A stretch of DNA of 64,000 bases from Deltaproteobacteria bacterium (GTDB lineage Bacteria > Myxococcota_A > UBA9160 > UBA6930). How positions within the stretch are numbered: position 1 is the first letter of the stretch; every line of letters starts with the position of its first letter. Shown here piece after piece: positions 25,908 through 50,702 of this stretch. The translations under genes were made by a program, and so were the position numbers. Location: assembly GCA_016875395.1 (NCBI GenBank), contig VGRF01000024.1, positions 1 to 64,000 of the forward strand. Reading direction: 5' to 3'. The notes below the pieces were generated by a model. The model did not search any database. It saw only the letters and a program-made list of their open reading frames with translations, and was not told the DNA's origin.

Positions 25908-26348
25908 TCAGCGCCGCTTGCCTCGCTTCGCGCTCGGCGCCTTCTTGCGCGCGGGCTTCGCCTTCTTGGCGCGCGCGGCTGCGCGCTTACGGCGCGTCGG
26001 CGCCGCCTTGCGCGCGCGCGGCGTGGTCACGTCGACCGGCTCGAAGCCCGCGAACATCTCGCCGGCTTCGGCGAGCTGCCCGAACGTGGGGTAGTCCGCG
26101 CACTCGCCGAAGCGCGTCCAGATCGCCTGCACCGCCGGATCGCGGTGCGCGCGCTCGATCGCTTCGTTCGAGGCCCACTCGAACACCTCGATGATCGTGC
26201 CGTCCTTGCGCGAGCGCGCGACGATCGGCGTGCGCGCCGTGACGAGTCCGAGCTCGCGCAGCGCGGGCACGTGCCCCTTCACGATCGCGAGCAAGTCGGC
26301 TTCGCGGCCGAGCTTCGGGCGATAGAGCGCGAACACGATCTCGGGCAT
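25908..26348 (-). CDS. dimeric alpha/beta-barrel-like protein with basic tail
   Basis: 146 residues. The first 100 look like an ABM/ferredoxin-like dimeric barrel: EIVFALYRPKLGREADLLAI, GTIIEVFEWASNEAIERAHR and IWTRFGECADYPTFGQLAEA. Residues about 113-146 are a Lys/Arg/Ala tail (RKAAPTRRKRAAARAKKAKP) like that of DNA- or RNA-binding proteins. The fusion of such a barrel with a histone-tail-like sequence is unusual. The ATG at 26348 overlaps the LLM stop by one base (TGATG), so it is translated after the LLM gene. Confidence 0.7.
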   Translation of the reverse strand: MPEIVFALYRPKLGREADLLAIVKGHVPALRELGLVTARTPIVARSRKDGTIIEVFEWASNEAIERAHRDPAVQAIWTRFGECADYPTFGQLAEAGEMFAGFEPVDVTTPRARKAAPTRRKRAAARAKKAKPARKKAPSAKRGKRR

Positions 26349-27376
26349 CACAGCACCGCCTTCGCGAGCACCTCGAGCGCCTCGACTTGGCCCGCGCCGG
26401 CGATCAGGTCCGTCACGCCGGACTTCTTCCAGACCGCGAGCCGCTCGGTCACGCGTTCCTTCGGGCCCACCAGCGCGATCTCGTCGACGAGCTCGTCGGG
26501 CACCGCGGCCATCGCCTCCATCTTCTTCCCGTCGAGATAGAGGTCTTGAATCTTCACCGCGGCCTCCTCGTAGCCGAGCCGCTTCGCGTAGTCGTTGTAG
26601 AAGTTCTTGCCGCGCGCACCCATGCCGCCGATGTAGAGCGCGAGGAAGCCCTTCACGGGCATGCGGCAGCGCGCGAGGTCGTCGCCGATCACGACGGTCA
26701 CGAACGGCGCGATGCGGAAGCTCGCGAGGTTGTTACGGCCGCCGCTCTTCGCGAAGCCCTTCTCGAGCGGAGGCTTCAGCAGGTCCATGCGCTCGGGACT
26801 CATCCAGACGGGGATCAATCCGTCGCCGACTTCGGCGCTGCACTCGATGCCCGCAGGCCCGATCGAGGCGGTGAAGATCGGCATGTCCTTGCGGCCGTGC
26901 AGGATGCTCTTCAGCGGCTTGCCGAGCCCCGTCGTGCCGGGGCCGACGTTCGGGATCTGGTAGTGCTCGCCCGAGAACGTCACCGCCTTCTCGCGCGCGA
27001 GGATCTGGCGGACGATCGCGACGTACTCGCGCGTGCGCGTGAGCGGCTTGCCGTAGGGCACGCCGTGCCAGCCCTCGACGACCTGCGGTCCCGAGGGCCC
27101 GAGGCCGAGGATGAAGCGGCCCCCGCTGAGCGCGTCGAGCGTCATCGCGGTCATCGCCGTCATCGCGGGAGTGCGGCCGGGCATCTGCATGATCGCGGTG
27201 CCGAGCTTGATCTTGCTCGTCAGGGCCGCGACGTACGCGAGCGGCGTGATCGCGTCCGAGCCGTACGCCTCCGCGCTCCACAGCGAGTCGAAGCCGAGCG
27301 CCTCCGCGCGCTTCACCTTCTCCATGTCGATCGACGCTTCCGCGCCCGAGTAGCCGAGGTTCAGGCCGAGACGCAT
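26348..27376 (-). CDS. LLM-class F420-dependent oxidoreductase
   Basis: A 342-residue luciferase-like TIM barrel. Family sequence: [80 protein letters not shown] and [15 protein letters not shown] proteins of this branch usually use F420, otherwise FMN; the cofactor cannot be settled here. The enzyme is cytosolic. Repeated AMTAMTAMT (about 72-80) is a small local duplication in an otherwise normal helix. It is coupled to the basic-tail protein downstream. Confidence 0.9.
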
Positions 27377-27463: not shown

Positions 27464-30022
27464 CTACGCCGCAGTCTCAGCGTCGGCATCCAAGGGCTTG
27501 GCCACCAACGGCAACTCGATGCTGAACACGGTGCCGCCCTCCGGCGGGCACTCGACGCTGAGCCTTCCACCGTGACGCTCCACGATGCCGTGCGAGATCG
27601 AGAGGCCGAGGCCGGTGCCCTGGCCGGCGGGCTTGGTCGTGAAGAACGGCTCGAAGATGCGCGCGCGGATGGCAGGGGGAATGCCGGGGCCGTCGTCGGC
27701 GATCGAGATGCGCACGCCGTCCGCGCTGGGCTCGCTCGAGACGCGCACGGTGCCGCGGCCTTCGAGCGCATCGCAGGCGTTCATCACGAGGTTCATGAAC
27801 ACCTGATTCAGCTGAGCGGGGTAGCAGCGCACGAGCGGCAGCTTCTCGAACGCGCGCTCCACCTGGACGCCGTCCTTGAAGCGCGGCTCCATCAGGCCGA
27901 GCGTGCGCGTGAGCTCGGCGTTCAAGTCTGCGTCGGTGAGCTCGGCTTGGTCCATGCGCGAGAAGCTGCGCAGGTCCATCACGATGTTCTTCACGCGCTC
28001 CGTGCCTTCGCGGCTGCGCGAGAGCAGCTTGCGAATCGCCTCGCGCGGCTTCTCCACGTCGCCGCCGCTCTCCTGCGCCTCGACGAGCTTCTCCACGTAG
28101 CCGGGCAGCAGCTGGAGGTTCGCGTGCACGAAGCCGATCGGGTTGTTCAGCTCGTGTGCAACGCCCGCCACGAGCTGCCCGAGCGAGCGCATCTTCTCGC
28201 TCTGCAGCAGCTGCGTCTGCGTTTGCTCGAGCTCGCGCGTGCGCTCGTCGACGCGCGCCTCGAGCGTCTCGTTCAGCTTCGCGATCTCGTCGAACGCCTG
28301 CGCGTTCTCGATCGCAATGGCGCTCTGGTTCGCGAGCGTGCGCAACAGCTGGCGGTCCTCGGGTCCGAGCTTCTCGCCCGAGAGGCGCTCGCCGATCGCG
28401 ATCACCCCTAACAAGTCGACGCCGAACAGGATCGGCACGAGCAGCTGCACGCCGAGCGCGTCGTACACCTCGCCGCAGCGCGAGCGCGTCTCTGGATCCG
28501 CGGCGTTCTCGAAGTCGGCGGCAGAAAGCTCCTGGCGCCGCATCCAGAGATGGCGCGCGACGGGGTGGCTCGCTTCGAGCGAGAACGCGTGCGCCCCGGC
28601 GCCCCACTCGCCGCGCCACGCGCTCGGCTTCAGCACGCGCGTCTCCTCGTCGAGCAGCAGCACGAGCGAGCGCGAGACCGGAATCGTGTCCTGAATCGCG
28701 AGCAGGAGGCGCTCGCTGATCTCGCCGAGCGAGAGCATCGAGACCATCGCCTCGGAGATCTCGCGCAGCGCGTCGCGGTGGCCGGCGCGGTCGCGGTCGA
28801 ATATGCGGTCGACGAGCGCCTGCAGGCGGTTGCGCAGCGGATTGAAGGCGAGGATCGCGAGGAACAGGAACACGATCGAGAAGAGCGGCGACTCGGCGTT
28901 GACGTTGAATCTGCGAAACGCGGCGTCGGCGAAGGTGATCGTGCCTGCGAACAGACCCGTGATCGCGAGCGTGGCCGCGCCGTACGCGCCCGAGGAGCGC
29001 GCGAAGTTGCGCACGTCGAAGAGTCGCCCGCGCACGAGTCCGTAGCCGACCGCGAGCGGAAACACGCCGAACCAGATCAGCGCCGCGGAGACCGGCAGCG
29101 AGACCGGCGCCCACAACAACAGCGCGAACAGCAGCGACATCGGCGCGAAGCTGAGCAGCGCGCCGGCGAGCACGATGTCGGCGGCCGCGGTCTCGCCGCT
29201 GCCGCGGATCCGCCAACGCTCGGCGATCAGGATTCCGATCGAGAGGAACGCGGCGGCGAACGCGAAGTCGAGGCCCGCGGACATCGCGATGCCGGGCGGG
29301 AGCAGACCCGCGCGCTCGATCGGCAGCGTCGCGATGCAGGCGAGCGCAATCGCGTACGGAAGCGCGCGCAGCCAGGCGCGGCCGCGCATCCAGAGCGGTT
29401 CGGTCGGGAAGCGCGTGAAGAGGTGCAGCATCGTCGCGCCGAGCAGCGGCTGCGTGATCGCCATGCGCTCGTAGCCGAACGGCGCGTCGAAGGTGTGCAC
29501 CGCGCTGAACAGCGTCGTCGCCATGCACGACGAGAACAGCAGGAACGACCAGGCTTCGGTTCTGCCCGAGCGCAGCCGCCACACGAACGCGCCCACGAAC
29601 AAGTACACCGCACCCGCCGCTACGAGTGCGGCGAAGATCGGCACGAGCAGAAGCGCGTAGCCGCTCTCGGTGTGCCGCGGAAGCAGGGAGACCTCGGAGA
29701 CGAGCCCGCCGCGCTGCTCCAAGCGGTAGACGACGGGCTTGCCGGCCTCGAGCCGCTCCCAGCCGCGCTCGCGATACCACTGCTGCACCGGCACGCCGTC
29801 GACCGCGAGCACGCGCTGCCCGCGCTCGACGCCCGCTTCGACGCACGCCTCGTCGGCGGTGCTCACGATCACGAGGCCGCCGAGCGAGCTGGTGAAGATC
29901 GGCGCCTCGACGCGGGGCGGCAGCGTGACCTGCCCGTAGATCACGAGCACCAGCGAAAGCACGGCCCACGCGACTGCGGCGAGGCCCGTCACGCGCTGGA
30001 AGCTCGTCGCGCGGTGCTTCAT
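27464..30022 (-). CDS. membrane sensor histidine kinase with PDZ-like and GAF domains (A)
   Basis: 852 residues. Order: a first membrane segment (about 12-32), a PDZ-like fold (about 45-95: [35 protein letters not shown]), a cluster of about seven to eight more membrane helices (about 120-390), a GAF domain (about 430-590; [20 protein letters not shown]), a coiled-coil linker ([20 protein letters not shown]), then HisKA with phospho-acceptor His623 in GVAHELNNP and HATPase_c ([30 protein letters not shown]). The start (ATG 30022) overlaps the stop of kinase B by four bases. No response regulator or receiver domain is adjacent. It is a paralogue of kinase B. Confidence 0.9.
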
Positions 30023-32565
30023 GCCGCGCCCGCCTCGATTTCCGCAGGCGGAGCGAGCGGCAAACGAATCGTGAACTTCGCGCCGTGTCCGGGCTCGGAC
30101 TCGACGCTCATCGTGCCGCCGTGGCGCTCGACGATGCCGTGCGAGATCGAGAGGCCGAGGCCGGTACCCTTGCCGACGGGCTTGGTCGTGAAGAACGGCT
30201 CTAACACGCGGCTCGACACTTCGGGGCTCATGCCCGGGCCGTCGTCCGCGAACTCGAGCACCACGCCGTCCTCTGCCGGCCGCGTGCGGACCGTGATCTT
30301 CCCGCGCTCGCCGAGCGCGTCGCACGCGTTCATCAGCAGGTTCATGAACACCTGATTCAGCTGGCCGGCATAACAACGCACGTCCGGCAGATCGCCGAGA
30401 TCGCGCTCCACCGCGATGCGGTTCTTCGTGCGCGGCTCGATCAGCGTCAGCGTTCGCTCGATCGCCTCGTTCAGCGAAACCTGCGTGAGCTCGGCCTGAT
30501 CGGTGCGCGAGAACGTGCGCAGATCCTGCACGATCTGCTTCACGCGCCCCGCGCCCTCTTGGCTGCGCACGAGCAGCTTGTCGATCGCGTCGCGCGCCCG
30601 TACCCGCCGCCCGGAATCGACGTCGGCGCGCATCAAGCGCTCCACGTTCTCCTCGAGCAGCTGGAGGTTCGCGTGCACGAAGCCGATCGGGTTGTTGAGC
30701 TCGTGCGCGACGCCCGCGACGAGCTGGCCGAGCGAGCGCATCTTCTCGCTCTGCACGAGCTGCGCCTGCGTGTCGCGCAGCTCGCGCGTGCGCTCCTCGA
30801 CGCGCGCTTCGAGCGTCTTGTTGAGCTGCGCGATCTCGTCGAAGGCCTTCGCGTTCTCGATCGCGATCGCGCTCTGGTTCGCGAGCGTCCGCAACAGCTG
30901 ACGCTCGTCGGGCCCGAGGCGCTCGCCCGTGAGCTTGCGGCCCACCGCGATGATGCCGAGCAGATCGACGCCGAACAGAATCGGGACGAGCAGCTCGACG
31001 TCGAGCGTGTCGAAGGCGTCTTGGCATGCCGAGCGCGTCTCCGCGTCGGCCTCGTCGTCGAAGTCGCCGCGCGCGAGCTCTTGGCGCTGCATCCAGAGCT
31101 GGCGACAGACCGGGTGGTCCGGCTCCAGCTCGAGCGCGAGCGCGTCCTCGTCCCAGTCGCCGCGCGACGCCGCCGCGCGCAGCGTCGCGCCGCCGCCGTC
31201 GTGCAGCATCACGAGCGCGCGCTCGACGCCCATCGTGTCCGTCACCGCGATCAGGATGCGCTCGACGATCTCCTTCGCGGACAGCATCGAGACCATCGCT
31301 TCCGAGATCTCGCGCACCGCGCGGCGATATGCGCGGCGCTCGCGATCGAACACGTCGTCGACCAGGCGCTGCACGCGCCGCAGCATCGGGTTGAACGCGA
31401 GAATCGCGATCGGGAGGAACACGACGCTCGCGATCGGCGTGCGCGCGTCGACGTCGAACCGGCGCAGCGCGCCCGCGGCGAGCGTGATGAGCGCGGCGAA
31501 GAGGCCGGTGATCGCGAGCGTGGCGGCGCCGTAGGCCGCGCTCGAGCGCGCGACGACGCGCAGATCGAACAGATCGCGCCGCACGATTCCGTAGCCGACG
31601 GCGGCGGGGAACAAGAAGAAGATCAGCATCGAGAGCGTCCACGTGAACGGCGTACCGACCGTGACGTGGACGCCGAGCGCGATCACGATCGGTAGGAACG
31701 AGAGCGTTCCGCCCACGAGCATCACATCGGCGCGCTCGGCGGCCTTCACACTCGGGCACCGCAGCCGCTCCGTCACCGCGATGCCGAGGCAAACGAGTGC
31801 CATGCCGGCGGCGAACGCGGTGGAGACCGCGTCGAGACCGTCGTGCGTGAAGGTGAGCCACGGCCGTAACAAGTGGAGCGTGCTGAGCGCCAGCGCCGCG
31901 TAGTAGACGCCGGCGCGAATCTGCGGGTACCGCACGATCCAGGCGGGCTCGATCGGATACGTCGTAAAGAGATGGAACGCCGTGGCGCCGACCCACGGAA
32001 TCGTCACGCCGATGAAGATCCACACCGGACCGAACGCGGGCCCGACGAGCGTCAGCAGCGCCGACGACATCGCGCAGAACAGCAAGAACACCCACGACTC
32101 GCGGCGGTCGGGCTTGAGCAACCACACCGCGAGCCCGATCACGGCGTAGACGAGGCCGACGATCGGGATCGCGATCATCGCGAGGCGATCGAGCGGGCAG
32201 GACGCCTCCTCCTCCGGTACCGCGTGCAGCGTCACCTCGATCACGCGCCCGTCGCGCTTCTGTAAGCGTACGAGCGCCTCGCCGCCGACCTCGAGGGCGG
32301 GCATCCCGAGCCGCATCCAGTCGCCGACCGGGTGGCCGTCGATCGTCAGCAACCGGTCGCGCGACTCGATCCCGAGCTTGCGCGCCTCGGGCCCGAGCTC
32401 GTTGATGACGTGCACGCCCGCGGCGGTCGAGAACGAGAACGGCAGGAACGGCCGCTCGCGCGCGGCGAGCTTCGCCTGTAGGCCGGCGACGAACGACGCG
32501 AGCGCCCACAGAATTGCGAGCGCCGCGGTCAGACGCCGAAAGCGAGTTCTCGCTCCCGGGCTCAT
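30019..32565 (-). CDS. membrane sensor histidine kinase with PDZ-like and GAF domains (B)
   Basis: 848 residues with the same layout as kinase A: first membrane helix (about 10-32), PDZ-like segment (about 48-100; GVHVINELGPEARKLGIESR, LLTIDGHPVGDW), multi-helix membrane block (about 125-385), GAF (about 420-585), HisKA with His621 in GVAHELNNP, and HATPase_c ([30 protein letters not shown]). The ATG at 32565 follows GGAGGGA; an in-frame ATG at 32580 lacks a site. It is first in a two-gene unit. The kinase cores are far more alike than the sensor halves, pointing to duplication then sensor divergence. Confidence 0.9.
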   Translation of the reverse strand: MSPGARTRFRRLTAALAILWALASFVAGLQAKLAARERPFLPFSFSTAAGVHVINELGPEARKLGIESRDRLLTIDGHPVGDWMRLGMPALEVGGEALVRLQKRDGRVIEVTLHAVPEEEASCPLDRLAMIAIPIVGLVYAVIGLAVWLLKPDRRESWVFLLFCAMSSALLTLVGPAFGPVWIFIGVTIPWVGATAFHLFTTYPIEPAWIVRYPQIRAGVYYAALALSTLHLLRPWLTFTHDGLDAVSTAFAAGMALVCLGIAVTERLRCPSVKAAERADVMLVGGTLSFLPIVIALGVHVTVGTPFTWTLSMLIFFLFPAAVGYGIVRRDLFDLRVVARSSAAYGAATLAITGLFAALITLAAGALRRFDVDARTPIASVVFLPIAILAFNPMLRRVQRLVDDVFDRERRAYRRAVREISEAMVSMLSAKEIVERILIAVTDTMGVERALVMLHDGGGATLRAAASRGDWDEDALALELEPDHPVCRQLWMQRQELARGDFDDEADAETRSACQDAFDTLDVELLVPILFGVDLLGIIAVGRKLTGERLGPDERQLLRTLANQSAIAIENAKAFDEIAQLNKTLEARVEERTRELRDTQAQLVQSEKMRSLGQLVAGVAHELNNPIGFVHANLQLLEENVERLMRADVDSGRRVRARDAIDKLLVRSQEGAGRVKQIVQDLRTFSRTDQAELTQVSLNEAIERTLTLIEPRTKNRIAVERDLGDLPDVRCYAGQLNQVFMNLLMNACDALGERGKITVRTRPAEDGVVLEFADDGPGMSPEVSSRVLEPFFTTKPVGKGTGLGLSISHGIVERHGGTMSVESEPGHGAKFTIRLPLAPPAEIEAGAA

Positions 32566-32647
32566 CGCTCCCTCCGGCACGCGCGCCGGGGCAGCTTAGG
32601 CAGCTGCGCTCGTTCGAGTCAAAGCGAAGAAGCGACCCGCGCGGGCG

Positions 32648-37784: not shown

Positions 37785-39062
37785 ATGCGTTCGCCCGCGA
37801 CACTTCTGCCCGACGTGCGCACGGCCGTGCCGGGGCCGCGTTCGCGAGCGCTCGCGGCGCGGCTTGCGGCGGTGGAGAGCCGCAACGTCACGTGTCTCGT
37901 GCCGGAGCCGCCGATCTGCTGGGAGCGCGCGAGCGGCGCGAACGTGTGGGACGCGGACGGCAATCGCTTCGTCGATCTCGGCGGCGGCTTTGGCGTGGCG
38001 AACGCGGGGCATGCGCATCCGCGCGTGGTCGCAGCGGTGGCGGAGCAGAGCGCACGGCTGATGCACGCGATGGGCGACGTGCATCCGCCCGCGGTGAAGG
38101 TCGCGCTGCTCGAAGCGCTCGCGGCGCGCTTCCCCGGCGGCGGGCCGGTGCGCGCGGTGCTCGGCAGCTCGGGCTCGGACGCGGTGGAGACTGCGCTGAA
38201 GACCGCGCTCGTGGCGACGGGGAAGCCCGGCGTGATCGCGTTCGCGGGCGCGTACCACGGCCTCGCGTTTGGCGCGCTCGACGCGACGCATCGCCCGATG
38301 TTCCGCGCGCCGTTCGCCGCGCGCCTCCCGGTGCGCACCGGCTTCGCGCGCTTCGGCGATGCGCGCGACGTGCTGCGCGCCGCGCGCGAGCTCGGCGCCG
38401 AAGTCGGCGCGGTGCTCGTGGAGCCGATCCAAGGCCGCGGCGGCGAGCGCGTTCCTCCCGACGGTTTTCTCAGCGAGCTGCGCGCGATCTGCGAACGCGC
38501 AGGCTGGCTGCTGATCCTCGACGAGATCTACACGGGCTTCGGGCGCACCGGCCGCTGGTTCGCGTGCGAGCACGAGGGCGTGCAGCCCGACTTGTTATGC
38601 GTGGGCAAGGGCTTCGCGTCGGGCATGCCGATCTCGGCGTGCATTGGGCGCGCCGCGGTGATGGATGCGTGGCCCGCGTCGCACGGCGAGGCGCTGCACA
38701 CGCAGACGTTCCTCGGTCACCCGCCGAGCTGCGCGGCGGCGCTCGCGTCGATGGCGGTGCTCGAAGACGAGAAGCTCGTGGAGCGCGCGGCCGAAGGCGG
38801 CGCCGCGGCGCTTGCGTTCCTGCGCGCACGCACGCGCGGGCTCGCGCGCGTGAGCGAGGTGCGCGGGCGCGGCCTCATGCTCGGCATCGAGTGCGACACG
38901 CCCGAAACCGCGCAGCGCGCCTGCGCGGCGGCGCTCGCGCGCGGCGTGATCCTGCTGCCGAGCGGCGACGACGGCCGCGTGCTCTCCGTAACACCTCCGC
39001 TCTGCATCGGGCGCGAGGCGCTCGAGCACGCGCTCGGCATCCTCGTCGCGGAGCTCGCGTGA
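37785..39062 (+). CDS. class III PLP-dependent aminotransferase
   Basis: 425 residues, fold-type I class III transaminase (omega-amino or acetylornithine-like). Motifs: NVWDADGNRFVDLGGGFGVA, NAGHAHPRVVAAVAEQ, LGSSGSDAVETALKTA, AYHGLAFGAL, the PLP Asp in LLILDEIYTGFGRTGRWFAC and the Schiff-base Lys in LLCVGKGFASGMPISA. Enzymes of this class move an amino group between an amino acid and a primary aldehyde or ketone. It is first in the operon; its stop overlaps the LuxE-like start by one base (TGATG). The partner genes suggest that its acceptor is an aldehyde made by LuxC; that is inference. Confidence 0.93.
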   Translation: MRSPATLLPDVRTAVPGPRSRALAARLAAVESRNVTCLVPEPPICWERASGANVWDADGNRFVDLGGGFGVANAGHAHPRVVAAVAEQSARLMHAMGDVHPPAVKVALLEALAARFPGGGPVRAVLGSSGSDAVETALKTALVATGKPGVIAFAGAYHGLAFGALDATHRPMFRAPFAARLPVRTGFARFGDARDVLRAARELGAEVGAVLVEPIQGRGGERVPPDGFLSELRAICERAGWLLILDEIYTGFGRTGRWFACEHEGVQPDLLCVGKGFASGMPISACIGRAAVMDAWPASHGEALHTQTFLGHPPSCAAALASMAVLEDEKLVERAAEGGAAALAFLRARTRGLARVSEVRGRGLMLGIECDTPETAQRACAAALARGVILLPSGDDGRVLSVTPPLCIGREALEHALGILVAELA

Positions 39063-40156
39063 TGGAGCGCCGCGAGATCGAGCGCGAGCTGCTGCATTGG
39101 ATGCGCAGCGAGCCGGATCGCCACGACCCCGAGCGCTTCGAGCGCCTCGCGCTCGCGCTCTACGCGCATCAGTTCGAGCACTGCGTGCCGTACGGGAAGT
39201 TCGCCGCGGGCCGCGGCGCGCGGCCGACGCAGGTTTCGACTTGGCGCGAGATTCCGTGCGTGCCCACGGGCGCGTTCAAGGAAATGCCGCTGCGCTCCTT
39301 CGCGCCGCTCGCGACGAAGCACGTGTTCCGCACCAGCGGCACCAGCACCGAGAAGCGCGGCGCGCTCTACCTCGACACGCTCGAGCTGTACGAGGCGTCT
39401 CTGCTGCCAAGCTTCGAGACGGGCGTGCTCCCCGAGTTGTTGGGGACGCGCGGGCGCATGCCGATCCTCGTGCTGGCGCCGAGCCCGGCGGAGGCGGAGG
39501 ACTCTTCGCTCTCGCACATGTTCGGGATCGTGCTGCGCGAGCGCGGCGCCGACGGAAGCGACTACTTCGTGCGCCGCGGCCGGCTCGAAGTCGCTTCGCT
39601 CGCACTCGCACTCGAAGCGGCCGTCGCGAAGGGCGCGCCGATCGCGCTGTGCGGCACGGCGTTCGCGTTCGTGCATCTGCTCGAGGCGATGGAGCAAGCG
39701 GGCCGGCGCATCGCGCTGCCGCTCGGCACGCGCATCATGGAGACGGGCGGCTTCAAGGGCCGCGCGCGCGAGCTCGGGCGCGACGAGCTCTACGCGCAGC
39801 TGCAGCAGCGGCTCGGCGTGGCGCCTGCGCAGATTGTGAACCAGTACGGCATGACCGAGCTCGGCAGTCAGTTCTACGACAGCGTGCTCGTGCAGCCGTC
39901 CGCCGCGCGCCACAAGCTCGCGCCGCCGTGGACGCGCGTACGCGTCGTCGACCCGAACACGGGCTGGGACGTGCCCGCGGGCGAAGCCGGCCTCGTCCAG
40001 ATCGTCGACCTCGCCAACACCGGCAGCGTGCTCGCGGTACAGACCGCGGACCTCGGACGCGAGCTGCCGGGTGGCTTCGAGGTGTTAGGCCGCTCCGCCG
40101 GCGCCGAGGCGCGCGGCTGCTCGATCGCCGCGGACGAGATGCTCGGTGCCGGCTAG
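39062..40156 (+). CDS. LuxE-like acyl-protein synthetase
   Basis: A 364-residue LuxE/acyl-protein-synthetase family protein. It activates an acid with ATP as an acyl-adenylate and holds it on a Cys for delivery to LuxC. Motifs: CVPYGKFAAGRG, IPCVPTGAFKEMPLRSF, the adenylation loop FRTSGTSTEKRG, METGGFKGRARELGRDELY, NQYGMTELGSQFYDS and a C-terminal RGCSIAADE, where Cys353 is placed like the acylated Cys of luminous-bacteria LuxE. It lies between the aminotransferase and the LuxC-like gene. No luxA, luxB or luxD is present. Confidence 0.88.
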   Translation: MERREIERELLHWMRSEPDRHDPERFERLALALYAHQFEHCVPYGKFAAGRGARPTQVSTWREIPCVPTGAFKEMPLRSFAPLATKHVFRTSGTSTEKRGALYLDTLELYEASLLPSFETGVLPELLGTRGRMPILVLAPSPAEAEDSSLSHMFGIVLRERGADGSDYFVRRGRLEVASLALALEAAVAKGAPIALCGTAFAFVHLLEAMEQAGRRIALPLGTRIMETGGFKGRARELGRDELYAQLQQRLGVAPAQIVNQYGMTELGSQFYDSVLVQPSAARHKLAPPWTRVRVVDPNTGWDVPAGEAGLVQIVDLANTGSVLAVQTADLGRELPGGFEVLGRSAGAEARGCSIAADEMLGAG

Positions 40157-41399
40157 CGCGAGCGAAGTGCGCGCGGCATCGGCGCGCTTGCGTGCAGCGG
40201 GCGCCGCGCTGCGCGCGCGACCTCGCGCCGAGATCGTGCGCGTGCTCGGCACGTTGCTCGAGCGGCTGCGCGACCCCGCGAGCGCGATCCGCGCGCGACT
40301 CGCGGCGGAGCTTCCCGCCGCGACGGGCTTCCATCCCGCGACGCTCGCGGCCGGGCTCGATTTGGGCTTCGAGCCCTGGACGGCGGAGGCGCTCGCGGCG
40401 CTCGTCGCGCGCGAGCTTGGAGGCGACCCGAGCCGCATCGCCTCCGGGTTCCCGCTGACCGCAGTCGTGCTCGGCGGCGCGATCCCGATGCCCAGCGTGC
40501 TGCAGGGAATCGCGCCCCTCGCGCTCGGGTCGCCGGTGCTGGTGCGTACGGGCGCACACGACCCCGTCACCGCGCGCGCCGTCGCGCACGAGCTCGCGCG
40601 CCTCGACCCTGAGCTCGGCGCTTGCGTCGAGGTCGTGTCGTTCCCGCACGGCGACGCGGAGGCGATGGCCGCGCTGTGCGAGGCCGAGTGCGTGGTGGCG
40701 ACCGGCAGTGACGCAGCGGTTGCCTCGATCCGCGCGCGCACGCAGCCGTGGCAGCGCTTCGTCGGTTACGGACATCGCTTCTCGGTCGCCGCGATCGGGC
40801 GGGAGGGCGATCTCGTGGAGGCGTGCGGCGCGGTCGCCGTCGACACCGCGCTGTGGGACCAGCTCGGCTGCCTCTCGCCGATCGCGCTGTTCGCGGTGGG
40901 TTGGCCCTGGGACGAGCGCGCCGCGCTGCTGGGCGAGTTGGCGCGCGCGTTCGCAAACCGAGCGGCGGCCTGGCCCCTTGGACGGCTCACCCCTGAGGAC
41001 GCCGCGCGGCGCGCGAACGAGATCGCCACGTTCGAGCTGCGCGCGGCGAGCAGTGGCGAGGCCGAGCTGCGACGCGATGCCGGGAACGCGTGGGCGCTGC
41101 TCGCGGAGCGCGAGTCGGTCTTTCGCGGCTCGCCGCTCGGCCGGGCGCTGCGCGTCCTCTTCATCCCGGACCTGAGTGCGCTCGAGGCAACCCTCGCGCC
41201 GGTCGCGCGCCATCTCGCGTCTGCGGGCGTCGCGGGATTCACCCGTACCGCGGCGGCTGAAGTCGGGCAGCGGCTCGCTGCCCTCGGTGCCTCCCGCATC
41301 TGCCCCGCGGGATCGATGCAGGCACCCCCCATCTCCTGGTGTCACGACGGGCAGGGCGTGCTGGCAACGCTGGCGAGGCTCGGCTCGGTCGAGATCTGA
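40146..41399 (+). CDS. LuxC-like acyl-CoA/acyl-enzyme reductase
   Basis: 417 residues starting at GTG 40146, overlapping the LuxE-like gene by 11 bases. It belongs to the LuxC branch of aldehyde dehydrogenases, which reduces an enzyme-bound acyl group to aldehyde with NADPH. Family sequence: VVLGGAIPMPSVLQGIAPLA, SPVLVRTGAHDPVTA, VVATGSDAAVASIRARTQ, RFVGYGHRFSVAAIG and the catalytic Cys242 in WDQLGCLSPIALF. It is the last gene of the operon and is followed 121 bp later by the SUF regulator. The acyl substrate is unknown. Confidence 0.88.
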   Translation: MPASASEVRAASARLRAAGAALRARPRAEIVRVLGTLLERLRDPASAIRARLAAELPAATGFHPATLAAGLDLGFEPWTAEALAALVARELGGDPSRIASGFPLTAVVLGGAIPMPSVLQGIAPLALGSPVLVRTGAHDPVTARAVAHELARLDPELGACVEVVSFPHGDAEAMAALCEAECVVATGSDAAVASIRARTQPWQRFVGYGHRFSVAAIGREGDLVEACGAVAVDTALWDQLGCLSPIALFAVGWPWDERAALLGELARAFANRAAAWPLGRLTPEDAARRANEIATFELRAASSGEAELRRDAGNAWALLAERESVFRGSPLGRALRVLFIPDLSALEATLAPVARHLASAGVAGFTRTAAAEVGQRLAALGASRICPAGSMQAPPISWCHDGQGVLATLARLGSVEI

Positions 41400-41520: not shown

Positions 41521-41976
41521 ATGCTTCGCATCAGCAAGCTCACGGACTACGGGATCGTGCTGCTCGCGCGCATCGCCGCAGAACCCGAAGGCGCGCAGCT
41601 CTCGGCGAGAGAGCTGTCGGAGTCGACTCGCCTGCCGCTGCCGGCCGTGAGCAAGATGGCGAAGCAGTTGGCGGCCGCGGGCCTGCTCGAGTCGCTGCGC
41701 GGCGCCAAGGGCGGCTACCGGCTCGTGCGAACGCCGGGCTCGATCAGCGTGGCCGAGATCGTGCACGCGCTCGAGGGGCCGATCGCGCTGATGGACTGCA
41801 CCGCGGGCCCCGGGCACTGCGAGCAGGAAGCGCGCTGCACCGTCTCCGAGCCGTGGCACCGCATCAACCGCACCGTGCGCGACGCCCTCTCGCGCGTGTC
41901 ACTCGCCGATCTCGCGCGCCCGCGCGGCGGCTCGCCGCTGCTCGCGATCGAACCCGCCCCCACCACTAACAACTGA
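41521..41976 (+). CDS. Rrf2-family Fe-S-sensing regulator of the SUF operon
   Basis: A 151-residue winged-helix Rrf2 protein: [40 protein letters not shown] (recognition helix), [20 protein letters not shown] (wing). Three cysteines, Cys93, Cys100 and Cys106 ([17 protein letters not shown]), are placed as the Fe-S ligands of IscR-type regulators. It is likely a repressor or sensor of cluster supply for the downstream genes. It is seven bases upstream of sufB and is the first gene of the operon. Confidence 0.92.
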
Positions 41977-41983
41977 GCCCGCC

Positions 41984-43438
41984 ATGTCCGAGAACGCAGA
42001 GCTCCGCGACCTCGCCGCCAAAGAGTACGAGTACGGCTTCGTCACCGAGATCGAGATGGAGCGCATCCCGAAGGGGCTCTCCGAAGACGTGGTGCGCCTC
42101 ATCTCGGCGAAGAAGGAAGAGCCGGCGTGGCTGCTCGAGTGGCGGCTCAAGGCGTATCGCCGCTTCGTAGAGATGCTCGCGGCCGGGCATCACCCGAAGT
42201 GGGCGCAGGTGACGTACCCCGAGATCGACTACCAGGACATGTACTACTACGCCGCGCCCAAGAAGCAGGCGAAGTACGAGAAGATCGAAGACGTCGACCC
42301 CGAGTTGTTACGGACGTACGAGAAGCTCGGGATTCCGCTCGCGGAGCAGAAGCGGCTCGCGGGTGTCGCGGTCGACGCGGTGTTCGACTCGGTCTCGGTC
42401 GCCACCACCTACAAGGCCGAGCTCGAGAAGCACGGCATCATCTTCGGCTCGTTCTCGGACGCGGTGAAGAAGCACCCCGAGCTCGTGCAGCGTTACCTCG
42501 GCTCCGTCGTCCCCTACGGCGACAACTTCTTCGCCGCGCTCAACAGCGCCGTGTTCAGCGACGGCTCGTTCGCCTACATCCCGAAGGGCGTGCGCTGCCC
42601 GATGGAGCTGTCGACGTACTTCCGCATCAACGCGCAAGAAACAGGGCAGTTCGAGCGCACGCTGATCGTCGCCGAGGAAGGCGCCTACGTGTCGTACCTC
42701 GAGGGCTGCACCGCGCCGCGGCGCGACGAGAATCAGCTGCACGCGGCGGTCGTGGAGCTCGTCGCGCTCGACGACGCCGAGATCAAGTACTCGACCGTGC
42801 AGAACTGGTACCCCGGCGACGAGAACGGCCGCGGCGGAATCTTCAACTTCGTGACCAAGCGCGGCGCATGCCGCGGCAAGCGCAGCAAGATCAGCTGGAC
42901 GCAGGTGGAGACGGGCTCCTCGATCACGTGGAAGTACCCGAGCTGCATCCTGCAGGGCGACGACTCGGTGGGCGAGTTCTACTCGGTCGCCCTGACGAGA
43001 GCGCGCCAGCAAGCCGACACCGGCACAAAGATGATCCACATCGGGAAGAACACCCGGTCCACGATCGTCTCGAAGGGCATCTCCGCGGGCCACGGCCAGC
43101 AGAGCTACCGCGGGCTCGTGAAGATCGGCCCGAAGGCGACCGGCGCGCGCAACCACTCGCGCTGCGACTCGCTCTTGCTCGGCGACCAGTGCGGCGCGCA
43201 CACCTTCCCATACCTCGAGGTGAAGAACGCGAGCGCGACGGTGGAGCACGAGGCGACCACGTCGAAGATCTCCGAGGACCAGCTCTTCTACTGCCGCCAG
43301 CGCGGCATCTCGGAGGAGGACGCGGTCTCAATGATCGTGAACGGCTTCTGCCGCGAGGTGCTGCGCGAGCTGCCCATGGAGTTCGCGGTAGAGGCGCAGA
43401 AGCTGCTCGGGGTTTCGCTCGAAGGCAGCGTGGGATGA
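41984..43438 (+). CDS. sufB: Fe-S cluster assembly protein SufB
   Basis: A 484-residue scaffold subunit of the SufBC2D complex, where clusters form. Family blocks: [98 protein letters not shown] and [20 protein letters not shown]. Conserved cysteines in EGCTAP and RSRCDSL-type positions fit the cluster and persulfide sites. The length is normal. The stop overlaps the sufC start (ATGA). Confidence 0.97.
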
Positions 43439-44232
43439 CGAAGATGAGCGCAGAGAAGAAGCCGCTGCTCGAGATTCGCGGGCTGCACGCGCGCGTGGCG
43501 GAGAAGCCGATCCTGAGAGGCCTCGACCTGACGATCCGTCCCGGCGAGGTGCACGCGATCATGGGTCCGAACGGCTCGGGCAAGAGCACGCTCGCGGGCG
43601 TGCTCGCGGGGCGTCCCGCGTTCGAGGTGACCGCGGGCTCCGTGCACTACGAAGGCCGCGACCTGCTCGCACTCTCGCCCGAGGAGCGCGCGAGAGAGGG
43701 CATCTTCCTCGCGTTCCAGTACCCCGTCGAGATTCCCGGTGTCACCAATAATTACTTCCTCAAGGCGGCGGTGAACGCAGTCCGTGCCCACCGCGGACTG
43801 GACACGCTCGACGCGATGGATTTCCTCGCGCTCTCGCGCGAGAAGATGAAGATCGTCGGCATGAAGCAGGAAATGATGTCGCGCGCGGTGAACGAGGGTT
43901 TCTCGGGCGGCGAGAAGAAGCGCAACGAAGTGCTGCAGATGCTCTTGCTCGAGCCGAAGCTCGCGATCCTCGACGAAACGGACTCGGGCCTCGACATCGA
44001 CGCGCTGCGCGTCGTCGCGAGCGGCGTGAATCATCTGCGCGGCGAGGGCCGCGCGATGCTCGTGATCACGCACTACCAGCGCCTGCTCGACTACATCGTG
44101 CCGGACTTCGTGCACGTGCTCGCCGAGGGCCGCATCGCGACGAGCGGCGGCAAAGAGCTGGCGCTCGAGCTCGAAGCGAAGGGTTACGGCTGGCTCGAGA
44201 AAGAGCCGCCGAGCGCCGGGGCCGCGCGGTGA
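43435..44232 (+). CDS. sufC: Fe-S cluster assembly ATPase SufC
   Basis: A 265-residue ABC-type ATPase of the SufBCD complex. Walker [11 protein letters not shown]-loop [13 protein letters not shown], signature [13 protein letters not shown], Walker [13 protein letters not shown] and H-switch [12 protein letters not shown] are all present; [13 protein letters not shown] is specific to SufC. The ATG at 43435 is coupled to sufB; a second ATG at 43444 is possible. The stop overlaps the sufD start (GTGA). Confidence 0.97.
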
Positions 44233-45422
44233 GCGCGCTCGCCGCAGCGAACGCGCGCCTGCTCGCGCTGTGCGACGCCGCAGCGCAGCGCAGCGACGCG
44301 CTCGCGCCTCTGCGCCGCGCCGGCCGCGAGGCGTTCGCGGCGTCGGGGCTGCCCGACACGTCACGCGAGGAGTGGCGCTACACGAACCTCGCCGCGCTGG
44401 CAGCGCACGAGTTCGCGCTCGCGCCGGCGTGGGCACCGGTGGTCATGGGAGGCGGCGGCGAGATCACCTCGCTCAGGGAGCATGCCGCGGCGCAGGGCCT
44501 CGGCGATCTCGTCGACCTGAAGCAGCATCCGCTTGCCGCTCTCGCGACCGCGCTCGTCGAGAACGGCCTCGTGATTCGCAGCGCCGCGAGTGCTGACGTC
44601 GCGCCGATCGCGCTCGCCTTCGCGGCATCTGCGAGCGAACGCGCGCTGATCTCGCTCCCGCGGCTTCGCGTCGAGGCCGCGCGCGGGAGCCGCGTGGCAG
44701 TCGTGCTCGACTGCACTTCGGCTGGCGCGCGCGCCGCACACTTCACGAACGCGATCATCGAGGTCGACGCTGCGCCGAACGCGCAGGTCGATCTCACGCT
44801 CGTGCAGCGCGAGCACGACGAAGCGTTTCACGCCTCGCTCACCGCGGTTCGCCTCGCGCGCGACGCGCGCTTCACGAGCCGCGTCGTGACGCTCGGCGGC
44901 CGCCTCGTGCGCAACGACCTCTCGGTGGTGCTCGCCGGCGAGGGCGCGGAGTGCACGCTCGACGGCCTCTACCTCGGCACGGGCGAACGCGTGGTCGACA
45001 ACCACTCGCTCGTGGACCACGCCGTCCCGCACTGCGCGAGCCGCCAGCTCTACAAGGGCGTGCTCGGCGGCGCGTCGCAAGGTGTCTTTCGCGGGCGCGT
45101 GATCGTGCGGCCGGGCGCGCAGAAGACGAACGCGGCGCAGTCGAACCCGAACTTGTTGCTTGCCGACGGCGCCGAGATCGACACGAAACCGCAGCTCGAG
45201 ATCTACGCCGACGACGTGAAGTGCAGCCACGGCTCGGCGATCGGCCGTCTCGACGAGAACGCGCTCTTCTACCTGCGCTCGCGCGGCCTCGGCGAGCGCG
45301 AGGCGCGCGCGCTGCTCACGCACGGCTTCGCCGCGGAGATTCTGAACGCGCTCCCGGAATCGCTGCGCGAGGAATGCAGCGCGGAGTTCGCGCATCGCGT
45401 CGCCGAGGATGCGAAGTCGTGA
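44229..45422 (+). CDS. sufD: Fe-S cluster assembly protein SufD
   Basis: 397 residues from GTG 44229. N-terminal helices contain SREEWRYTNLAALAAHEF, the usual SufD 'EEWRYT' block. The beta-helix core has LIEVDAAPNAQVDLTLVQRE, CTLDGLYLGTGERVVDNHSL, FRGRVIVRPGAQKTNAAQSN and KCSHGSAIGRLDENALFYLR. The conserved His of NHSLVDH and the Cys of KCSHG are the likely interface residues with SufB. It is coupled to sufC and sufS by four-base overlaps on each side. Confidence 0.95.
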   Translation: MSALAAANARLLALCDAAAQRSDALAPLRRAGREAFAASGLPDTSREEWRYTNLAALAAHEFALAPAWAPVVMGGGGEITSLREHAAAQGLGDLVDLKQHPLAALATALVENGLVIRSAASADVAPIALAFAASASERALISLPRLRVEAARGSRVAVVLDCTSAGARAAHFTNAIIEVDAAPNAQVDLTLVQREHDEAFHASLTAVRLARDARFTSRVVTLGGRLVRNDLSVVLAGEGAECTLDGLYLGTGERVVDNHSLVDHAVPHCASRQLYKGVLGGASQGVFRGRVIVRPGAQKTNAAQSNPNLLLADGAEIDTKPQLEIYADDVKCSHGSAIGRLDENALFYLRSRGLGEREARALLTHGFAAEILNALPESLREECSAEFAHRVAEDAKS

Positions 45423-46663
45423 GCGCCGCGGTGAACAGCGCGCCCGCGCTCGACGTCGCGAAGAGTCGGCGCGACTTCCCCGTGTTAGAGCGGCTCTCGC
45501 GCGGCAAGCGCGTCGCCTACCTCGACACCGGCGCGAGCGCGCAGAAGCCGCGGCAGGTGATCGACGCCGTCGCCGAGTTCAGCGCGCACTCCTACGCGAA
45601 CATCCACCGCGGCGTGTACGAGCTCTCCGCGCTCGCGACGCAGCGCTTCGAGGCGGCGCGCGCGCGCGTCGCACGCTTCCTCGGCGCGAGCGAGGCGCGC
45701 GAGATCGTGTTCGTGCGCAACACCACCGAGGCGATCAACCTCGTCGCGTTCGCATGGGGCCGCGCGAACGTGCGAGCCGGCGACGAGGTGCTCATCACCG
45801 AGATGGAGCACCACGCGAACATCGTGCCATGGCAGCAGCTGTGCCTGGAACGCGGCGCTGCGTTGCGAGTGGCGCCGATTCTCGACGATGGCGCGCTCGA
45901 CATGGAAGCGTTCGCGCGGCTCGTTTCGGCGCGCACCAAGCTCGTCGCGGTCGCGCACGCGAGCAACGTGCTCGGCACGCTGAACCCCATTTCGCGCATC
46001 TGTGAGCTCGCGCGTGCGCACGGGGCGCTCGTGCTGGTGGACGGCGCGCAGGCGGCGCCGCGCATTCCCGTCGACGTGCGCGCGCTCGGCTGCGATTTCT
46101 ACGCATTCTCCGGGCACAAGGCCTACGGGCCGAGCGGCGCGAGCGCGCTGTGGGGCCGTGCGCGCGTGCTCGAAGCGATGCCGCCGTTCATGACGGGCGG
46201 CGGGATGATCGCGAGCGTCGCGTTCGAGAAGACGACCTTCGCGCCGATTCCCGAGCGCTTCGAAGCGGGCACGCCCGCGATCGCGGAAGTGGTCGGCCTC
46301 GGCGTCGCGCTCGACTACCTCGACTCGATCGGGCTCGCGGCGATCGACCGACACGAGACTGAGTTGCTGGCGTACGGCACGGAGCTGTTACGAGCGATTC
46401 CCGGCCTGCGCCTGATCGGCACGGCGCGGGAGAAGGTCGGCGTGCTCTCGTTCGTGGTGGACGGCGTTCATCCGCACGACCTCGGCACGATCCTCGACGA
46501 AGAGGGCGTCGCGATACGCGCCGGCCATCACTGCGCGCAGCCGCTGCACGCGCGCTTCGGCATCGCCGCGAGCGCGCGCGCCTCCCTCGGCCTCTACAAC
46601 GACCGGGACGACCTCGATCGCCTCGCCGCCGCGATCCGCAAAGCGATCGCGCTGTTCTCCTAA
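45419..46663 (+). CDS. sufS: cysteine desulfurase SufS
   Basis: A 414-residue PLP-dependent group II cysteine desulfurase; it takes sulfur from cysteine as a persulfide. Motifs: AYLDTGASAQKPRQVIDAV, IHRGVYELSALATQRFEAAR, ITEMEHHANIVPWQ, the PLP Lys in FSGHKAYGPSGASALWG and the persulfide Cys372 in AGHHCAQPLH. The GTG start at 45419 overlaps the sufD stop. The stop codon TAA lies inside a CCTAACAA motif. SufU, the expected partner, is encoded next. Confidence 0.96.
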   Translation: MSAAVNSAPALDVAKSRRDFPVLERLSRGKRVAYLDTGASAQKPRQVIDAVAEFSAHSYANIHRGVYELSALATQRFEAARARVARFLGASEAREIVFVRNTTEAINLVAFAWGRANVRAGDEVLITEMEHHANIVPWQQLCLERGAALRVAPILDDGALDMEAFARLVSARTKLVAVAHASNVLGTLNPISRICELARAHGALVLVDGAQAAPRIPVDVRALGCDFYAFSGHKAYGPSGASALWGRARVLEAMPPFMTGGGMIASVAFEKTTFAPIPERFEAGTPAIAEVVGLGVALDYLDSIGLAAIDRHETELLAYGTELLRAIPGLRLIGTAREKVGVLSFVVDGVHPHDLGTILDEEGVAIRAGHHCAQPLHARFGIAASARASLGLYNDRDDLDRLAAAIRKAIALFS

Positions 46664-46677
46664 CAACCGAGCCCAGT

Positions 46678-47121
<444 letters not shown>

Positions 47122-47130
47122 GAGCGCGGC

Positions 47131-47445
47131 ATGGCGGACGTCACCGAGATCAAGCAGAGCGTCATCGACGTGCTGAAGACCGTCTACGACCCCGAGATTC
47201 CCGTCGACATCTACGAGCTCGGTCTCGTGTACGACGTGAACGTCGAAGAGAGCGGCGCCGTCGCGATTCGCATGACGCTGACGTCGCCGATGTGTCCGGT
47301 CGCCGAGAGCCTGCCGCCCGAGGTCGAGGAGAAGGTGCGCGGTGTGCCGGGCGTTACGGAAGTGAAGCTCGATCTCGTGTGGGAGCCGCCGTGGAGCCCG
47401 AGCTTGATGTCGGAAGCGGCGCGGCTCGAGCTGGGGATGGAGTAG
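47131..47445 (+). CDS. sufT: SufT / MIP18-family Fe-S maturation protein
   Basis: 104 residues of the DUF59/MIP18 family: IKQSVIDVLKTVYDPEIPVD, IYELGLVYDVNVEESG, IRMTLTSPMCPVAESLPPEV and KLDLVWEPPWSPSLMSEAAR. The Cys in SPMCPVAE is the family's conserved residue. SufT proteins help deliver clusters to target proteins. The ATG at 47131 follows GGAG. Its 3' end may overlap the fdhD frame. Confidence 0.94.
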   Translation: MADVTEIKQSVIDVLKTVYDPEIPVDIYELGLVYDVNVEESGAVAIRMTLTSPMCPVAESLPPEVEEKVRGVPGVTEVKLDLVWEPPWSPSLMSEAARLELGME

Positions 47446-48413: not shown

Positions 48414-50702
48414 TCACGCCAGCCGCCCGTCCGCAATCGCCGCCGCAACTTCCTCCTCGCTCACGCCGCACGCGCCGAGCACTTCGACGTTGTGCTCGCC
48501 CACGTACGCCGGCGCGCGCAGGTAGGGATCGAGCGCGCTCGCGCTGAAGAGAGCGGGGAAGCGCTCGTGCGGGCGCACGCCGAACACGGGCGATTCGAGC
48601 GTGCGGAAGAAGTCGCGCGCGGCGAGCTGCGCGTCGTCGGCGAAGAGATGCTGCGCGTTCTGCACGCGGCCCGCGGGCACGCCCGCGGCTTGCAGGGCGT
48701 GCATCGCGTCCGCAGCGCTGCGCGCGGCGCACCACGCGGCGAGCGCCTCGGGGCCGCCGCCGGTCACGCGCCTCAATGCGGCGAGCTCGGCGTCGCTTCG
48801 AGTTGTTATTGCGATCTCGCCGTCGCTCGCTTTGAACACGTCGTTCACGGCAAAAGCGGCGTATGGATCGACGTTGCCGTTCGGCTCGGCGGCGCGGCCG
48901 TTCGTGAGCACGTCCATCACTGCGGCGCCGACCATGTAGGAGCCGACTTCGAGCTGCGCGATGTCGACGAGCTGGCCCTCGCCCGTGCGCTCGCGCGCCT
49001 CGAGCGCAGCGATCACCGCGAGCGCCGCGAGCCCGCCGGCCGCCATGTCGTTCAGCGCGTAGCCCACGCCCACGTCGCCGCGGCCCGGCGGATTCGAGAG
49101 AGCCGTCAGGCCGCACAGCGCCTGCACGGTCGGCCCGTACGAGACGACGCCGTTCCACGGCCCCTCGTGCCCGCAGCCGCTCATCGTCACGTACACGAGC
49201 CGCGGGTTCCACGAACGCAGCGTGTCCCACGTGAGGCCCCAGCGCGCGAGCACGCCCGCGGCGTAGTTCTCGATCACCACGTCCGCGCTCTCGACGAGCT
49301 TGCGCATGATCGCGAGCGAGCCCTGCGCCTTCATGTCGAGCGCGACGCTGCGCTTGGAGCGGTTGAACGTGGCGTAGAAGCCCGCGTTGGGATCGTTCAC
49401 GCTGGTGGCACGCGCGGCGGTCTGCAGCTTCACCACGTCGGCGCCCAGATCGCCGAGCATGCGGCACGCGAACGGGCCCGCGAGCACCCAGCTGAAGTCG
49501 AGCACGCGCATGCCTTCGAGCGGCCGGCGCTTCGGCGGCGCCGAAGTTGTTACGGCCGCGCGCGGCGTCCAGGCGGCGAGCACCTCATCGAGCGCCCTCT
49601 GAGCTGGACCCGCAGGCGCAGCGCACGGCGTGCCGCCGAACACGATCGGGAAGCGGCCGCGGCGCACGCTCGCGTCGCCCTGCGCCGGCACGAACGCGCC
49701 GCGGAAGGCGAGCTGCTCGTTCGCCTCGAGGTCGCGCACGGTCTGCACCTGGCCCCACGCGAGGTGGCGCTTCTGCGCCTCGTGAAACAGCCACTTCGCG
49801 TCGTGCTTCAGCGCGAACTGCGCGGCGAGGCCGACCAGCGCGGGCAGGTGCATCAGCGTGACCTGCTCGCCTGCCGGCACGAGCTCCTTCGCGCCGGGCA
49901 CGCCTTCTTCCACGAGCCACTGATGCAGCGCCGCGGGTGCAGGCGTGGGCGTGATCATGCACGCGCCCGTTTTCGCGGGCAGCACGAGGTAGCCGCGCGA
50001 CCAGTGCAGGCTGCCCTGGCGCGGCGCGATCTTCGCGAAGCCGGGCTGCACGTCGTCGTAGTGGAACTGGAACCACGGCTGCTCGAGGCTCGACGTGACC
50101 GCCTCCTGCGCCGAGATGTCGACGAACTCTCCGCGCCCCGTCTCGCGCGCGGCGCGCGCGCACGCGAGGCCCGCGAGCGCGGCGACGATCGACGCCGCCG
50201 CGAAGCTCTGCCGCCCCCACGGCACCACGGCCTGCTCGGGTGTTCCGCACACCGAGAGCACACCGCTCAGTGCGGCCGTCACGAGATCGCTCGCCACCCA
50301 GCCCGCGCGCGGGCCGGTGCGGCCGAACGGCGTGAGGCTCACGTGAACCAGGCGCGGGTTCGCAGCTGTTAGGTCCGCGTAGTCGAGGCCGAGCGCGGCG
50401 AGGCGGCCGGGCGCGAGCGTCTCGACCACGAGGTCGGCGCCGCTCGCGAGCTGGCGATAGGCGCTCGCGCCCTGCGCGGTGCCCAGCTGCAGCGGCACGA
50501 TCCGCTTGCTCGCGTCGAGCCACCAGTCGAGCAAGCCGCCGCGCGCGTTCGCCGAGGGCGCGTTCATCGCCGGCCCGTGCGTCACGCCCGCGCCGTCGTG
50601 GACGCGCACCACGTCGGCGCCCATCTCGGCGAGCAGCTTCGTCGCGAAGCGGCCTAGGTCGTCCGTGAGATCGATGACTCGCAGGCCCTGCAGCGGTCCC
50701 AT
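48414..50702 (-). CDS. double-domain CaiB/BaiF (class III) CoA-transferase
   Basis: 762 residues made of two class III CoA-transferase units. The N-half (about 1-385; LQGLRVIDLTDDLGRFATKL, EMGADVVRVHDGAG) and the C-half (about 398-762; LEGMRVLDFSWVLAGPFACR, DLGADVVKLQTAARA) each carry the family start block. The C-half keeps an Asp at the expected catalytic place (GYALNDMAAGGLAALAV). In the N-half the matching region reads WGRQSFAAASIVAALAG without Asp, so that half is probably structural. Class III enzymes normally dimerise as interlocked rings; a fused asymmetric pair would make one active site. Its acyl substrate is unknown. Confidence 0.9.
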   Translation of the reverse strand: MGPLQGLRVIDLTDDLGRFATKLLAEMGADVVRVHDGAGVTHGPAMNAPSANARGGLLDWWLDASKRIVPLQLGTAQGASAYRQLASGADLVVETLAPGRLAALGLDYADLTAANPRLVHVSLTPFGRTGPRAGWVASDLVTAALSGVLSVCGTPEQAVVPWGRQSFAAASIVAALAGLACARAARETGRGEFVDISAQEAVTSSLEQPWFQFHYDDVQPGFAKIAPRQGSLHWSRGYLVLPAKTGACMITPTPAPAALHQWLVEEGVPGAKELVPAGEQVTLMHLPALVGLAAQFALKHDAKWLFHEAQKRHLAWGQVQTVRDLEANEQLAFRGAFVPAQGDASVRRGRFPIVFGGTPCAAPAGPAQRALDEVLAAWTPRAAVTTSAPPKRRPLEGMRVLDFSWVLAGPFACRMLGDLGADVVKLQTAARATSVNDPNAGFYATFNRSKRSVALDMKAQGSLAIMRKLVESADVVIENYAAGVLARWGLTWDTLRSWNPRLVYVTMSGCGHEGPWNGVVSYGPTVQALCGLTALSNPPGRGDVGVGYALNDMAAGGLAALAVIAALEARERTGEGQLVDIAQLEVGSYMVGAAVMDVLTNGRAAEPNGNVDPYAAFAVNDVFKASDGEIAITTRSDAELAALRRVTGGGPEALAAWCAARSAADAMHALQAAGVPAGRVQNAQHLFADDAQLAARDFFRTLESPVFGVRPHERFPALFSASALDPYLRAPAYVGEHNVEVLGACGVSEEEVAAAIADGRLA

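Follow-up and report, generated by a model that had tools for sequence, protein, structure and literature searches.

A route from a carboxylic acid to an amine is described in the tambjamine pathway of Pseudoalteromonas tunicata, in which TamA and TamH take a fatty acid and ATP through a thioester and an aldehyde to an amine, using a class III transaminase (PMC9594044). In TamA an adenylation domain is fused to an ACP, and in TamH a transaminase is joined to an AAR-type reductase; both enzymes, like the related PigE of the prodigiosin pathway, belong to natural-product clusters. Acid activation, reduction and class III transamination also follow one another in ArgB-ArgC-ArgD and in LysZ-LysY-LysJ, with a kinase and a phosphate-dependent reductase for the first two steps. 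The acyl-protein synthetase LuxE and the acyl reductase LuxC are known mainly from bioluminescence. Here, we compared with these systems a locus of three genes in the window, i.e. the whole 64,000-nucleotide stretch of DNA that was analyzed, which the sequence-only reading had put forward as a possible acid-to-amine pathway.

As presented in Table 1, the window carries a class III aminotransferase gene (AT), a LuxE-like gene and a LuxC-like gene, in the order AT-LuxE-LuxC and with overlapping ends. The ATG start codon of LuxE has one base in common with the TGA stop codon of AT, and LuxC starts with a GTG and overlaps the LuxE stop codon by 11 bases. The three overlapping genes first noticed at positions 37785-41399 were recovered after small coordinate corrections. 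We propose, with a probability of about 0.7, that this trio forms one stand-alone pathway that would make a primary amine from a carboxylic acid. No description of a LuxE, LuxC and aminotransferase trio was found in the open literature searched.

Table 1. Coordinates of the trio and of other features mentioned in the text (positions in the window)
Feature	Position	Strand	Characteristics
Luciferase-family gene	26348-27376	-	PF00296
Sensor histidine kinase-like protein	~27464-30000	-	
Sensor histidine kinase-like protein	30019-32580	-	
Class III (fold type I) PLP aminotransferase (AT)	37785-39062	+	425 aa; Pfam Aminotran_3 328.5 bits
LuxE-like acyl-protein synthetase	39062-40156	+	364 aa; acyl-accepting Cys353 in RGCS; Pfam LuxE 57.5 bits
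LuxC-like acyl reductase (aldehyde-dehydrogenase superfamily)	40146-41399	+	417 aa; catalytic Cys242 in GCLSP; Pfam LuxC 143.6 bits
SUF iron-sulfur operon	41521-47445	+	Rrf2 regulator, SufB, SufC, SufD, SufS, SufU, DUF59-like gene; directly downstream of the trio
Protein with apparent CaiB/BaiF CoA-transferase domains	48414-50702	-	762 aa

LuxE and LuxC both exceeded the curated Pfam cut-offs (24.9 bits and 21 bits, respectively) and therefore belong to these families, with a single copy of each in the genome of the window. For both proteins, the single good PDB match was the LuxC-LuxE complex 7xc6 (profile E values of 1e-34 for LuxE and 1e-37 for LuxC). In the profile alignments, Cys353 of LuxE corresponded to the C-terminal GCS cysteine of the 7xc6 LuxE, and Cys242 of LuxC to the cysteine in the DQQACFS motif of the 7xc6 LuxC. 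The acyl-accepting cysteine was present in 89/89 LuxE sequences covering that position, and the catalytic cysteine in 76/76 LuxC sequences. The alignment and this invariance uphold two earlier statements, namely that LuxE retains its C-terminal acylated cysteine and that Cys242 is the catalytic residue of LuxC. On the grounds of homology and of the invariant cysteines, LuxE would adenylate the acid with ATP and retain its acyl group in thioester linkage to Cys353, and LuxC would accept the acyl group on Cys242 and, using NAD(P)H, reduce it to the aldehyde. No carrier-protein domain was detected among the Pfam matches of the three separate proteins of the trio.

No luxA, luxB or other lux gene flanked the trio. 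Against the luminous equivalogs, LuxE and LuxC reached 44.8 bits (cut-off 550) and 56.4 bits (cut-off 750), respectively, far below the cut-offs. The trio has neither the adjacent luxA and luxB nor the equivalog-level LuxC and LuxE of a lux operon. The 4.5 Mb genome of the window contained 71 matches to the luciferase family (PF00296), and five of the best ones, including the one from the window itself, belonged to F420-dependent or other monooxygenase subfamilies and not to LuxA or LuxB. The absence of luxA and luxB next to the trio had also been reported from the sequence alone. LuxD gave no match in this genome, and the control genomes gave no match either, so that this result does not prove luxD to be missing. 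The luciferase-family genes checked were mostly F420-dependent LLM oxidoreductases, which points to an F420-rich metabolism.

The aminotransferase contains an Aminotran_3 domain, and its catalytic Lys275 and PLP-binding Asp246 were found in 81/81 orthologues, which places it among the class III aminotransferases. Among solved structures, it comes closest to GabT (4ffc) and the putrescine aminotransferase YgjG (4uox), and PigE was among its NCBIfam and PDB matches. By this assignment, AT would convert the aldehyde to the amine via PLP on Lys275. In class III enzymes, a Glu and an Arg bind the alpha-carboxylate of 2-oxoglutarate (PMC4244111). In the alignment with YgjG, residues Lys183, Glu243, Gln274 and Arg426 corresponded to Leu160, Arg218, Tyr249 and Ser401 of the AT. 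The Glu243 position was an Arg in 79/81 AT orthologues; the Arg426 position was an Arg in 1/81 and a small or polar residue in the others; the substrate-side carboxylate-binding position (Arg/Lys) was a Leu in 75/81, and the Gln274 position was mostly aromatic. The AT lacks both the Glu-Arg pair and the substrate-side Arg or Lys that characterize the GabT, YgjG, AcOAT and OAT subfamilies. In the same residue comparison, the ArgD of the window's genome had the classical residues intact. From these residues we infer that the substrate side of the AT accommodates no carboxylate and that its donor site is altered: with a Leu at the substrate-side position, the product most likely bears no carboxylate close to its amino group (e.g. 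a fatty or other neutral amine), and with altered Glu and Arg positions the amine donor would be recognised otherwise than glutamate is in GabT and YgjG.

The missing Glu-Arg pair, which in class III enzymes contacts the alpha-carboxylate of 2-oxoglutarate (PMC4244111), would also fit a different reading, in which LuxE and LuxC make an aldehyde and the PLP enzyme acts on it as an aminomutase, a racemase or a condensing enzyme and not as a plain transaminase; class III takes in HemL-type aminomutases and amino-acid racemases, and racemases were among the AT matches. We consider such an activity unlikely, since the AT overall resembles GabT and YgjG and not HemL, and since Arg218, at the Glu position, could itself bind the donor carboxylate. 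A role of the trio as a stand-in for arginine or heme enzymes was rejected as the main idea because an ArgD (422 bits against a cut-off of 410) and a HemL-type enzyme (512 bits against a cut-off of 398) are encoded elsewhere in the genome.

To evaluate the conservation of the trio, we searched related genomes for the three families. LuxC was present in 57/61 close relatives and, at the level of the class, in 86/91 genomes, and LuxE profile matches were obtained in 306/379 genomes of the phylum (196/237 of the better assemblies), with search profiles built from the class of the window and with counts that are not independent since the genomes, many of them MAGs, are related. In 38/39 sampled genomes of the class, AT-LuxE-LuxC were contiguous and in unchanged order, a few being cut by contig ends; in the lone exception (G014), LuxE lies elsewhere on the chromosome. 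Elsewhere in the phylum, 36 of 49 additional genomes had AT and LuxE side by side and in the same orientation, one of these pairs being separated by about 1.5 kb. Two Candidatus Binatia-type genomes had the order LuxE-LuxC-AT, unlike that of the class; both of their AT sequences retain the Glu, and their specificity may differ from that of the AT of the class. The conserved co-occurrence of the three families thus extends across the class and the phylum, and their arrangement, which recurs across dozens of families, is not due to chance. The protein distances of AT, LuxE and LuxC were correlated (r 0.82-0.85, n = 65 genomes), and a quick LuxE tree grouped most families as predicted by vertical descent. 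Inheritance of the trio is largely vertical; no viral contig encoded a relative, and no close trio was found on plasmids. A single reading frame spans both LuxE and LuxC in two genomes distant from each other (L049:1143-3518 and L105:100-2487), which we take as apparent natural fusions.

We also compared the neighbourhoods of the trio. Within the order to which the window belongs, the trio was often preceded by folK and cysH and followed by the SUF operon. This synteny extends to many families of the order, whereas in the second order of the class the SUF operon does not follow the trio. A functional link between the trio and SUF was rejected on account of this absence in the other order; the gene order is probably inherited. 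In the second order and in other classes, the flanks consisted of differing housekeeping or regulatory genes, the flanks as a whole comprising SUF, folK, cysH, uracil-DNA glycosylase, ribosomal L17, PrmA, GGDEF and similar genes. No O-antigen, flagellar or natural-product cluster surrounded the trio in the loci examined, and an O-antigen or natural-product role was rejected as no such genes recur alongside it. The sequence-only reading had regarded two outcomes as arguments against a shared pathway, namely the lack of a conserved neighbourhood in related genomes and a LuxC with a clear other role, for example in an O-antigen cluster. The neighbourhood proved to be conserved in the class and the phylum, and no LuxC of that kind was found in these loci. 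There was likewise no conserved transporter or amine-responsive regulator alongside the trio in the loci examined, no conserved neighbour indicating the substrate, and no evident common neighbour of the split LuxC genes. With unrelated housekeeping neighbours, the trio therefore appears as a stand-alone core module.

Transaminases are reversible, and the two closest solved relatives of the AT, GabT and YgjG, are both catabolic. The trio could accordingly be read in the reverse direction as an amine breakdown, with the AT deaminating an amine to an aldehyde, LuxC, a member of the aldehyde dehydrogenase superfamily (with a weak match to 4h7n in the PDB), converting the aldehyde to an acyl thioester, and LuxE freeing the acid and possibly saving ATP. 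However, an ordinary aldehyde dehydrogenase suffices for such a breakdown without an ATP-using partner, and core status, a stand-alone location and the lack of a conserved adjoining transporter or amine-responsive regulator are unlike catabolism, so that we judge this direction improbable. In the acid-to-amine pathway that we favour, the steps would run from acid to thioester, aldehyde and amine because LuxE is needed only in the uphill, reductive direction.

Some further features were observed around these loci. A calcineurin-like phosphoesterase gene (approximately 73% identical) lies on the opposite strand near LuxC in L114:5147-5881, and similarly in L115, L119, L122 and L124; these loci belong to several families outside the class, and this may be plain synteny. 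In the window itself, two similar sensor histidine kinase-like proteins stand in tandem as an apparent duplication, and a 762 aa protein seems to combine two CaiB/BaiF CoA-transferase domains within a single polypeptide (Table 1).

LuxE-LuxC pairs were also found with other neighbours. Plasmids of Pantoea and Azospirillum carry non-luminous pairs, whose LuxE is 37-44% identical, and no class III aminotransferase is annotated within 6 kb of them. An SDR gene lies nearby in Pantoea (L176:4703-8050) and farther along in Azospirillum (L178:4726-10579), and these plasmid pairs adjoin peptidase or ABC-transporter genes. LuxE-LuxC pairs of a second type (L107:3067-8404, L106, L111, L134 and L064:6907-9404) branch together as a separate clade. 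In L106, L107 and L111 this pair comes after aconitase/LeuC-LeuD-like and FAD-oxidoreductase genes, and the pair of L064 (second copy in G069) has aconitase-like genes downstream.

We then analyzed whether the three genes are kept together when they are not adjacent. LuxC was detected in 12/12 LuxE-positive genomes, mostly ones where it had not been seen adjoining LuxE, and in 0/12 LuxE-negative genomes. In one family (f18), AT lies apart from LuxE, and an AT orthologue was still recovered in 8/8 such genomes searched (461-487 bits), all eight from this family; the lone AT is followed by a NUDIX-family gene in 4/6 genomes (L156:6882-7397, L157, L158 and L161). By comparison, 0/12 of the same LuxE-negative genomes had an AT orthologue, their best class III enzymes being generic (250-335 bits). 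Five of these twelve genomes come from one family and the other seven from seven different families, so a single loss is unlikely to explain the negative set. AT, LuxE and LuxC are retained or lost as one set even when unlinked. That the AT is a mere conserved neighbour, with LuxE and LuxC supplying the aldehyde for a different reaction, for example one that yields an alcohol, is suggested by the pairs with other partners (SDR in Pantoea and Azospirillum, aconitase-like genes in the second type) but is most improbable, given that AT and LuxE are kept jointly even when unlinked, are absent jointly and have correlated distances.

Overall, the acid-to-amine proposal is supported by the conservation of the trio, its retention as a set and the invariant catalytic residues, its direction, substrate and product being predicted from the sequences. 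The phylum-wide core status and the rebuilt active site of the AT go beyond the initial description of the locus. The chemistry and the protein families were already known; their phylum-wide combination with an altered transaminase is undescribed in the open literature searched. Since the trio is carried by approximately 80% of the genomes of the phylum and its genes are retained or lost jointly, it likely makes something that those cells need. The broader idea that the phylum, probably Myxococcota, and its Binatota relatives make a core amine not known before, such as a precursor of a lipid or a cofactor, through LuxE, LuxC and an AT with a rebuilt site is in our opinion evenly balanced. These results suggest that LuxE-LuxC serves more generally to reduce acids and that the product depends on the partner enzyme, being an amine with the AT and possibly an alcohol in pairs that have an SDR. 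A carrier-free acid-to-amine route with three separate enzymes would suit biocatalysis.

In comparison with the described systems, the trio shares with the luminous LuxC-LuxE of 7xc6 both protein families, the acyl-accepting cysteine of LuxE and the catalytic cysteine of LuxC, but differs by the absence of luxA and luxB alongside, where no luxD was seen either, by scores below the equivalog level and by its constant AT partner. With YgjG and GabT, its AT has in common the class III fold and the catalytic lysine but not the carboxylate-site residues. Where ArgB-ArgC-ArgD and LysZ-LysY-LysJ rely on a kinase and a phosphate-dependent reductase, the trio uses LuxE and LuxC. The chemical logic proposed for the trio is the same as that of TamA and TamH, with different enzymes: the carrier-bound acyl chain and the reductase-transaminase fusion of TamA/TamH or PigE are absent, and LuxE and LuxC are separate proteins without a carrier protein. 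In contrast to TamA/TamH and PigE in their natural-product clusters, the trio is found as a stand-alone module across a phylum.
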